Shown here: positions 18,384 through 20,607 of the stretch, piece by piece
Layout of the letters: every line of letters begins with the position of its first letter
Numbering within the stretch: position 1 is the stretch's first letter
Assembly: GCF_013085545.1 (NCBI RefSeq)
Contig: NZ_CP039543.1
Location: 3,627,322 to 3,691,321, forward strand
From: Oceanidesulfovibrio marinus
Lineage (GTDB): Bacteria > Desulfobacterota > Desulfovibrionia > Desulfovibrionales > Desulfovibrionaceae
DNA: 64,000 nucleotides
Reading direction: 5' to 3'
The notes under the pieces: model-generated
Seen by the model: only the letters and a program-made list of their open reading frames with translations
Database searches by the model: none
Told to the model about the DNA's origin: nothing
Program-made: the position numbers and the translations under genes

Positions 18384-18656
18384 ATGGCGTTGAGAAAATG
18401 GACCCCGGAACAGAAAGCCCAGATCGTCCTCGAAGGCCTTCGAGGACGATCCGTCACAGAAATCTGCACGGAGCATGCCATCACTCAGAACATGTACTAC
18501 CGGTGGCGGGATCAGTTGCTGGAGAAGGCCCACGAGGTCTTTATCTCGGACAAGAACACCCGGCGCACGGCAAAGCTCGAACGCGAAAACACCCGGCTCA
18601 AGGGGCTGGTGGGCGAGCTGACTCTGGAGCTTAAAAAAAGCGATCTGTTCGAATGA
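18384..18656 (+). CDS. IS3-family transposase OrfA
   Basis: 90 residues. Helix-turn-helix of transposase_8 type (RKWTPEQKAQIVLEGLRG, SVTEICTEHAITQNMYYRWRDQLLEKA) followed by a leucine-zipper-like helix (KLERENTRLKGLVGELTLELKK). It binds the terminal repeats. Near its end the run of seven A followed by G (18633-18640) is a typical slippery site; a -1 shift there would read on into orfB. The TGA stop also overlaps the ATG of orfB, so termination-reinitiation is possible as well. Confidence 0.92.
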   Translation: MALRKWTPEQKAQIVLEGLRGRSVTEICTEHAITQNMYYRWRDQLLEKAHEVFISDKNTRRTAKLERENTRLKGLVGELTLELKKSDLFE

Positions 18657-19429
18657 AGCGTGGCCCATACCCCAAAGTTGCATCTCGCAACACTCTGTTG
18701 TTGCAGAGAATTCGCGCCATCAAGGCGGATCATCCCTACTGGGGCTACCGCCGGATCTGGGCCCACTTGCGTTTTGTGGACACGATGTCCATCGGCAAAC
18801 ACCGCGTCTACCGGCTTATGCGCGACCACGGCCTCTGCGTGAAGCGCGGCGCCGTGCCCGCGACCAATCGGAAGCCTTCGCGCCCCAAGCCGCGTCCGAC
18901 GCGGCCCAACGAGTGGTGGGGCACGGACATGACCAAGGTCATGATCGACGGCTTTGGCTGGATGTACGTCGTGATCGTCCTGGATTGGCGCACCAAAAAG
19001 GTCGTGGGGCATTACGCCGGGGCGCAAGCCAGGACAGAGCACTGGCTCGCGGCGCTGGACCAGGCCGTGAATCGGCAGTTCCCCGAGGGCGTGCGCGGCG
19101 GCGGCCTTCACCTGATGTCGGACAACGGCAGCCAGCCGACATCATTGAGCTTTATGAAGACATGCCACTGCCTGGGCATCACGCAGGCCTTCACGGCGTA
19201 CAACAACCCCAAGGGCAACGCCGATACGGAGCGCTTCATGCGGACGCTGAAGGAGGAGCTCGTGTGGGTGAACGAATGGCGTAGCCCCACGGCTTTCTGC
19301 GAGGCGCTAAGCCGCTGGATTGACGACTACAATGCGCACTACCTGCACTCGACGTTGGGCTACCGAACGCCCCTGGCTGTCGAGCAGGAGCTGCTCAACC
19401 CAAACCTCCCCTTACAAGAGGCTTGCTAA
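18653..19429 (+). CDS. IS3-family transposase OrfB (DDE catalytic subunit)
   Basis: 258 residues. N-terminal HTH_21 region (HPYWGYRRIWAHLRF, HRVYRLMRDHGL), then the retroviral-integrase-like core with catalytic D in WWGTDMTKV, D in LMSDNGSQPTS, and E in GNADTERFMRTLKEE, followed by the K/R seven residues on that stabilises the site. Frame -1 relative to orfA, overlapping it by 4 bp. Intact. Confidence 0.93.
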   Translation: MKRGPYPKVASRNTLLLQRIRAIKADHPYWGYRRIWAHLRFVDTMSIGKHRVYRLMRDHGLCVKRGAVPATNRKPSRPKPRPTRPNEWWGTDMTKVMIDGFGWMYVVIVLDWRTKKVVGHYAGAQARTEHWLAALDQAVNRQFPEGVRGGGLHLMSDNGSQPTSLSFMKTCHCLGITQAFTAYNNPKGNADTERFMRTLKEELVWVNEWRSPTAFCEALSRWIDDYNAHYLHSTLGYRTPLAVEQELLNPNLPLQEAC

Positions 19430-19891: not shown

Positions 19892-19932
19892 AAAAAACCC
19901 CCGGCCCTCGCGAAGAGGACCGGGGGTGGGTT
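19892..19932. terminator. Terminator between convergent VOC and DUF2188 genes
   Basis: Stem ACCCCCGG (19897-19904) with CCGGGGGT (19920-19927), extended by a CCTC/GAGG pairing inside. On the minus strand it is followed by six T, so it chiefly serves the DUF2188 gene; GGGTTAGGG follows on the plus side. Confidence 0.7.
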
Positions 19933-19937
19933 AGGGC

Positions 19938-20165
19938 TTATCCTTTGTAACGTTCAGGGTCATTCCCGTAGGTGTGCTCGGTCTGGAACTCACCATCTCC
20001 TTTATGGATGATGATTTGTCCAAGGGGGGCGTTTTTCGCGATATCCTTCCCTCGGTTGACGGCATCTTCTTTTCGATCATGGTAGCTGTCAGCACGTCCA
20101 GCATCCTCGGACTGTACCTTCCATTTCTTGCCTGCTTTCGTTACGTGGACTTTTTTCCGTGACAT
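19938..20165 (-). CDS. DUF2188-type small basic protein
   Basis: 75 residues from the ATG at 20165 (GAGAGGTG eight bases upstream). The pattern SRKKVHVTKAGKKWKVQSEDA, then SYHDRKEDAVNRGKDIAKN, then GQIIIHKGDGEFQTEHTYGNDPERYKG matches the DUF2188 family: a lysine-rich beta-alpha-beta unit ending in YGNDP. The function is unknown. Probably co-transcribed with the 44-residue gene 70 bp upstream on the same strand. Confidence 0.78.
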   Translation of the reverse strand: MSRKKVHVTKAGKKWKVQSEDAGRADSYHDRKEDAVNRGKDIAKNAPLGQIIIHKGDGEFQTEHTYGNDPERYKG

Positions 20166-20234
20166 AGCTATGCACCTCTCAGTGTCTAAAGAGTTAGACG
20201 GGAGCGCCCGAAGGCGCTCCGCTGTCAATACCTG

Positions 20235-20369
20235 CTACAGATAGAAGATGAATGCCTTCTTTCCGTAGTCCTTAGCTCGAATGATGCGTCCGCTCCGCCA
20301 ATGGCGGAACCAAGCCACAAATCTGACGCGACGCCCGTTTATGACGCCGTTCCAGCTTTGTCTGGACAT
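20235..20369 (-). CDS. 44-residue basic protein of unknown function
   Basis: A short frame starting ATG at 20369, preceded by ATAGGAGGTAATTCCT, whose GGAGGT is one of the best ribosome-binding sites in the window. The product is MSRQSWNGVINGRRVRF, followed by VAWFRHWRSGRIIRAKDYGKK and AFIFYL: rich in Arg, Trp and Phe, no membrane helix, no signal peptide. I do not recognise it beyond the impression that RHWRSGRIIRAKDYG resembles a recurrent motif of very small bacterial proteins. It sits 69 bp upstream of the DUF2188 gene in the same direction. Likely real because of the Shine-Dalgarno and intact frame; the function is unknown. Confidence 0.6.
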   Translation of the reverse strand: MSRQSWNGVINGRRVRFVAWFRHWRSGRIIRAKDYGKKAFIFYL

Positions 20370-20402
20370 AGGAATTACCTCCTATGTTTACACGAGCAGG
20401 CG

Positions 20403-20430
20403 TTGACACAAAGAGTGGTGGGAGTATAAC
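20403..20430 (+). promoter_or_regulatory. Sigma-70-type promoter with no following gene
   Basis: TTGACA (20403-20408), 16-bp spacer, TATAAC (20425-20430). A dyad AACTATG (20428-20434) and CATAGTT (20447-20453) covers the -10 box and the expected start near 20437, like an operator. No coding frame with a start signal follows on the plus strand; a short terminator hairpin does. Confidence 0.55.
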
Positions 20431-20436
20431 TATGAA

Positions 20437-20515
20437 CTGCCAAGTACATAGTTGCACCAGCTTCTGGTGCCAAGGGCCTCCTGCTCGTGTTGTTACGACT
20501 GGAGGCCTTTGTCTT
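20437..20515 (+). ncRNA. Candidate small RNA, about 80 nt
   Basis: Bounded by the promoter at 20403-20430 and a hairpin AAGGGCCTCC (20472-20481) with GGAGGCCTTT (20501-20510) followed by TGTCTTTG. Between them lies a perfect hairpin GCACCAG-CTT-CTGGTGC (20454-20470). The loop of the terminator hairpin contains CCTGCTCGTGT. No known RNA family is recognised. Alternatively these structures belong to the 5' leader of the minus-strand small genes. Confidence 0.4.
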
Positions 20516-20572
20516 TGCATATTGTTTCGGCGTTAACACGCCGTTACCATACGAATCTCCTTATCCTTGAAA

Positions 20573-20607
20573 AACCCCCCGGCCCCCCTTTGGAGGACCG
20601 GGGGGTT
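20573..20607 (-). terminator. Terminator of nrdD
   Basis: Stem AACCCCCCGG (20573-20582) with CCGGGGGGTT (20598-20607). On the minus strand it is followed by TTTTCAAGG. It lies 33 bp after the nrdD stop. Confidence 0.8.

Follow-up and report, generated by a model that had tools for sequence, protein, structure and literature searches.

In type I toxin-antitoxin pairs such as tisB/istR and zorO/orzO, a small ORF and a small RNA are encoded divergently, often in prophages. For plasmids of the IncI complex (ColIb-P9, IncB, IncK), a published account (PMC10724649), which cites the ColIb-P9 pseudoknot work, describes an antisense RNA and a repZ leader, in which a hairpin loop is complementary to a segment proximal to the Shine-Dalgarno sequence (SD). 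The locus analyzed here lies in a 64,000-nucleotide stretch of the Oceanidesulfovibrio marinus genome (NZ_CP039543.1, positions 3,627,322 to 3,691,321; hereafter the window, numbered from its first letter). It is of an already known kind, a predicted small RNA of a mobile element with a small cargo gene, and what is unusual here is the palindromic promoter. Its features suggest a way of controlling passenger genes that has not been described before.

The predicted small RNA and its relatives

A sequence-only reading of the window had proposed a small RNA that looks regulated and is served by a promoter and a terminator of its own. All the motifs that it named were found in place, and the region is more structured than chance. 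On the plus strand, TTGACA (20403-20408) is followed by a 16-nt spacer and TATAAC (20425-20430); this small-RNA promoter (20403-20430) scores 12.4 bits with a position weight matrix (PWM), and 0/200 shuffles score as high. Three hairpins abut without linkers: the central dyad H1 (AACTATG-N12-CATAGTT, 20428-20434/20447-20453, spanning 20428-20453 and assigned to no strand), the plus-strand hairpin H2 (GCACCAG-CTT-CTGGTGC, 20454-20470), and H3 (20471-20511). The stem of H3, CAAGGGCCTCC/GGAGGCCTTTG (20471-20481/20501-20511), comprises 10 Watson-Crick pairs and one G-U pair around a 19-nt loop and is directly followed by TCTTTG; together with the T-rich tail, H3 is a probable intrinsic terminator on the plus strand (20471-20518). 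The predicted RNA is about 82 nt long (20437-20518, plus strand), its start being placed at the -10 box plus 7 and its end at the terminator. The fold of 20429-20520 has a z-score of -6.5 and that of the predicted transcript one of -4.2, with no shuffle equally stable in either case. A strict promoter and terminator scan listed neither the small-RNA promoter nor the terminator, because T is missing from position 6 of the -10 box and the loop of the terminator exceeds the length permitted by the scan.

Covariance models and a small-ORF search identified 12 loci in Desulfovibrionaceae genomes and one Syntrophaceae metagenome-assembled genome (MAG), and a viral contig matches by architecture. A single-sequence covariance model run on 348 genomes of the class returned two relatives, L033 and L034. 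Later models added L050, L051, L059, L058 and L116 and rescored the Syntrophaceae locus, L102; a search with the 44-aa ORF family led to L134, L135 and L136, in which the element was located by eye. The viral contig L165 is identical in sequence to L134, whereas in the viral contig L166 the small ORF is present with no clear RNA; L167, the contig that matches by architecture, has no model score and is therefore not counted as a family member. Only the covariance models worked on the element itself: BLAST against 199 family genomes gave nothing beyond chance, DNA searches of phage and plasmid records gave nothing, a pattern scan of genome contigs gave mostly chance matches, and pattern scans of viral sequences gave chance matches or none. 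L096 and L098 look similar but lie beside a SAM_alpha riboswitch and a tRNA and were dropped, as was L076; the model matches L052, L118, L119, L121, L126 and L129, at 25-30 bits, were too weak to be accepted.

The stems H2 and H3 do show compensatory changes, whose absence had been named as grounds against the small RNA. In a MAFFT alignment of seven members that was not fitted to structure (A6), 11 of the 24 pairs had changed on both sides, 5/7 in H2 and 6/17 in H3, although these changes, like the wobbles counted below, are not independent events because the member sequences are related. A model-fitted alignment agreed with this result. The covariation score of the two stems in A6 was 0.240 against 0.136 ± 0.028 for shuffled alignments (0/500 as high), and at most 0.101 when the stems were slid. 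With G-U and A-C mismatches given equal weight in scoring, H2 and H3 of 12 members contain 27 plus-type and 7 minus-type wobbles, part of this plus excess being one G-U common to seven members; H3 alone has 19 plus-type G-U against 3 minus-type. T-rich tails follow H3 in most members, with poor T tracts at a few terminators (L116, L136), and the conserved hairpins and terminator carry no protein-coding content. The compensatory changes and plus-type wobbles therefore make a conserved plus-strand small RNA likely, and, together with the relatives, they support the proposal of an independently initiated and terminated RNA; we regard the existence of the predicted transcript as quite probable.

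Shortly 3' of the terminator, most members have a further hairpin (H4), with a clear T tract only in L051. Rfam gave 0 matches above the gathering score in the window, only low-score chance matches for the element at E up to 5, and none for the relatives except the unrelated tRNA and SAM_alpha riboswitch. Searches of Rfam, PHROGs, Pfam and NCBIfam returned nothing for the RNA or the 44-aa ORF, and a description of the RNA/ORF family was not found in the open-access literature.

The palindrome around the promoter

The dyad AACTATG-N12-CATAGTT had been described as operator-like, so that the RNA looked regulated. The dyad is present, but it forms only the middle of a longer palindrome that is itself conserved, and a simple operator of two half-sites at the start point is therefore not the preferred interpretation. 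This imperfect palindrome extends over ~100 bp, with a left arm (20390-20426) that includes ACACGAGCAGG and the plus -35 box, and a right arm (20449-20490) that includes CCTGCTCGTGT inside H3, neither being assigned to a strand. ACACGAGCAGG and CCTGCTCGTGT form an 11-bp inverted repeat (20390-20400/20480-20490), one copy flanking the -35 box and the other lying within H3; in the 64 kb, just one other exact 11-bp repeat has its halves this far apart. Complementarity runs on through the -35 box (CTTGACA vs TGCCAAG) into the spacer, giving 29 Watson-Crick pairs between the arms in the window.

Own-locus complementarity is retained in nearly all members despite differing sequences, as in L050 (GGAGAGCAGC), L034 (GGCGGACTC) and L051 (GGAGTGGGTG). 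Own arms match better than arms exchanged with other members (0/20000 permutations as good), and the outer, -35 and inner parts of the palindrome are each significant when close relatives are dropped (0-2/20000). Measured against random window positions, 9/13 loci fall in the top 1.1%, with L033, L058, L116 and L136 outside it; the palindromes of L033, L116 and L136 do not rise clearly over background. Over the whole palindrome, G-U and A-C transitions number 40 to 38. There is thus no strand bias, and nothing in the arms indicates that they pair as RNA of one strand; the constraint therefore probably acts at the DNA level.

TTGAC lies upstream in 12/12 Desulfovibrionaceae-type members, a conservation that is partly ascertained, since models R2/R3, used to find members, contained TTGACA. 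Plus promoters exceed shuffles in most members; their -10 box has no T at position 6 in most cases and is poor in L051, L058 and L116. On the minus strand, the right arm holds a mirrored, weaker promoter, TTGGCA-N17-TATGTA (20445-20473), which is a candidate for expression of the small ORF. In 8/12 members, the top-scoring minus promoter of the right half is built on the mirrored CTTG(G/A)C box; these promoters are individually weak, with modest scores, are missing in some members, and exceed shuffles more weakly than the plus promoters do. A minus-strand promoter lying beyond H3 was rejected, as nothing stood out there by PWM score in 12 members. An invertible promoter is disfavoured, because several repeats are imperfect and the element has the same orientation in all members, in a search whose models flipped copies would have escaped.

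Divergent cargo and the inserted module

In the window, the RNA has as its divergent partner a minus-strand ORF of 44 aa (20235-20369), which is preceded by a strong SD, AGGAGG (20378-20383), and starts 33 bp left of the plus -35 box. A small ORF with an SD is found 31-57 nt from the -35 box on the opposite strand in all members, and the constant partner of the RNA is an immediately divergent ORF of 42-90 aa. In genome G144, a 42-aa ORF that is 46% identical to the 44-aa ORF occupies the same position beside the RNA. The 44-aa protein is basic and represents a nameless small-protein family with the motif HWRSGKIIxAxDYGKKAF, which also occurs in other genomes of the Desulfovibrionaceae family and in three viral contigs.

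The DUF2188 gene (19938-20162, minus strand; Pfam PF09954, E 2.6e-16), which is second in the inserted module, had been named as the gene whose carriers should be compared for covariation. Its association with the RNA proved incidental, the constant partner being the divergent small ORF: the RNA is clear at only 2/26 DUF2188 loci of the family (the window and G156), with one weak match (23 bits) elsewhere. The divergent cargo varies and includes DUF2188, a GETC-type protein of 59 aa, a 42-57-aa family, a CxxC protein, HNH and a protein of 82 aa.

The window module is located between the genes for glyoxalase and NrdD. DUF2188, the 44-aa ORF and the RNA together form an insert of ~640 bp (19928-20572, no strand), whose GC content is about 0.50-0.51 against 0.60-0.65 around it. 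In the sister species G001, glyoxalase, one terminator and nrdD (88% identical in DNA) follow each other with no insert. Since this low-GC DNA lies between two similar terminators and is missing from G001, the module is, judged by composition and by the sister comparison, a horizontally gained insert. The bracketing terminator hairpins (19893-19927 and 20571-20607) both match the single terminator of G001, the pattern one would see had the insert entered a terminator and duplicated it. An IS3-type transposase, encoded in two overlapping frames (18384-19429), directly adjoins the glyoxalase gene on its left and is thus not far from the insert.

Among the relatives, the module of G156 (L034) lies beside nrdD, as in the window. 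Mu-like baseplate genes are found near the G144 locus, L050 is adjoined by tail genes that are prophage-like as judged by sequence, and L102 by an integrase. HigBA-like, XRE-ImmA and SecB-type toxin-antitoxin-chaperone genes, named partly by eye, often lie nearby.

In the prophage-like region of G144, a HigB-HigA-SecB-like toxin-antitoxin-chaperone operon (L112:7945-9289) lies beside the RNA, with SecB and HTH domains assigned by Pfam and HigB by eye. RelA/SpoT-like and TIR-like genes, recognized by eye, are located near the element of L102 (L102:4246-7919), an arrangement suggestive of a defence island adjoining the integrase. L058 is placed between cas3 and cas5 by Pfam, and L116 appears to be so by sequence; around 1500-1830 in both, the cas3-cas5 gap encodes a CxxC protein of 54-55 aa, preceded by the same RNA and palindrome, whose gene is possibly a guard of the CRISPR locus.

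Candidate mechanisms and comparison with described systems

We tentatively interpret the locus as a mobile control module of two genes, in which a terminated small RNA unit and its cargo are under reciprocal promoter control. Two face-to-face promoters would be held in one long imperfect palindrome with a symmetric core. The stronger, TTGACA-16-TATAAC, would fire to the right and produce an ~80-nt RNA of two hairpins, stopping at the second, which would serve as the intrinsic terminator. The weaker mirrored promoter, TTGGCA-17-TATGTA, would fire to the left through a short leader and an SD into the small cargo ORF, which in the window would be the 44-aa ORF, followed by DUF2188. Each promoter lies within the initially transcribed region of the other, so firing of the RNA promoter should limit the activity of the cargo promoter through occlusion and collision; the symmetric sequences beyond the two -35 boxes would allow a single factor or DNA state to influence both promoters. 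Given this face-to-face anatomy, the RNA would share sequence with the mRNA leader rather than be complementary to it. What the sequences show is the RNA hairpins conserved with compensatory changes and plus-type wobbles, the maintained palindrome, the constant divergent ORF and the horizontal insertion; we infer transcription, the minus start site, interference and any regulator as parts of this mechanism. Against it, a simple interference device has no obvious need for covarying sequence outside the -35 boxes or in the spacers. The imperfect plus -10 boxes, the weak or missing mirrored promoters, the few poor T tracts and the palindromes near background in L033, L116 and L136 also count against it.

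A cis-antisense RNA with a leader switch, as in IncI/IncB plasmids, is a serious rival, because the pairing between leader and SD is weak but specific and readthrough is possible in several loci; we consider it conceivable, if on the unlikely side. The cargo mRNA would start upstream of H3 or read through from HigBA, ImmA or cas3, the loop of its 5' hairpin would pair with a leader segment by the SD, and the plus RNA would bind the loop and block this pairing. The long-range complementarity between the SD-proximal segment and H3 is indeed kept in own pairs, the leader segment pairs slightly better with its own SD window than with others (562/20000), and many members have a codirectional gene just upstream of the palindrome. 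The lack of a minus promoter beyond H3 argues against such a switch, as do the palindrome wobbles, which have no overall minus-strand excess; in the window, moreover, the strong terminator at 20573-20607 shields the module from nrdD readthrough.

It is also unlikely that the transcript is a trans-acting small RNA of mobile elements, with targets elsewhere and the neighbouring ORF as a passenger. Conserved hairpins and a terminator without coding content would suit such a role, as would divergent cargo that differs among members, but the constant small ORF with its SD at 31-57 nt and a palindrome that includes the promoter would be left unexplained. No seed region stands out, and complementarity of the RNA to the SD of its own ORF is non-specific, with 11001/20000 permutations as good, a result on which direct pairing with that SD was rejected as well.

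Quite improbable, in our view, is that the symmetric sites are operator or activator sequences, namely repeats of ~10 bp, often GAGCAG, that lie on the outer side of the two -35 boxes and would be recognized by a regulator, for instance the XRE protein encoded nearby, with the RNA as a by-product. The DNA-level symmetry without strand bias, the weak -10 boxes, which suggest an activator, and the XRE or HigA-type regulators in several loci accord with this. Against it stand the RNA-level compensatory changes and plus-strand wobble bias in H2/H3, covariation of the inner arms too, and the window locus, beside which no regulator gene is present. Retron and integron attC readings were dropped, as neither a reverse transcriptase nor attC boxes were seen near the element by eye.

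If the reading as a control module is true, a small RNA family without an Rfam entry would mark a reusable regulatory cassette that mobile elements put before unrelated tiny genes, and some of the cargo genes would lie inside defence loci. It would further provide a handle on the silencing of phage passenger genes and a sequence signature for additional cargo genes. The mirrored arrangement of promoters and RNA is unusual and easily tested with reporters. We hold it doubtful, as a bolder view, that these loci form a new class of mobile cassette, in which a ~100-bp palindrome couples a terminated RNA to swappable cargo as a bistable or entry-sensing switch; just as speculatively, the palindrome of this class would be kept by compensating changes and not by sequence across prophages, toxin-antitoxin loci and a CRISPR operon.

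Among described systems, the element resembles tisB/istR and zorO/orzO in that its small ORF and predicted small RNA are divergent and often in prophages. Unlike in type I pairs, its repeat is inverted and not direct, so that RNA and leader would have sequence in common and not pair; the RNA shows no specific complementarity to the region around the SD of its mRNA, and the cargo proteins are diverse and basic or soluble. With the IncI-complex antisense RNA, the element shares a short RNA with secondary structure, here a predicted one, encoded opposite the sequence that precedes a gene, and complementarity between loop and SD-proximal segment. It differs from that complex in having no replication gene, its cargo being small ORFs, DUF2188 or HNH, in a palindrome that includes the promoter, with no minus start found upstream of the RNA, and in a wobble pattern that is not minus-biased. 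The CRISPR-regulated toxin-antitoxin RNAs of CreTA (PMC8501985, PMC9458426) are located beside cas genes and guided by Cascade. Two members of the present family are comparable in position, L058 between cas3 and cas5 and L116 apparently so, and a short sequence match next to a promoter is a further similarity; the other loci, including the window, are outside cas operons, and no repeat-spacer-repeat layout was noted. Finally, like the single-stranded DNA promoter Frpo of F (PMC9849209), the element can be drawn as a long imperfect hairpin containing the -35 and -10 boxes. In Frpo, however, the -10 box lies at the hairpin base and the -35 box toward the loop, whereas here the -10 box points to the loop and the loci are prophages and chromosomal inserts.
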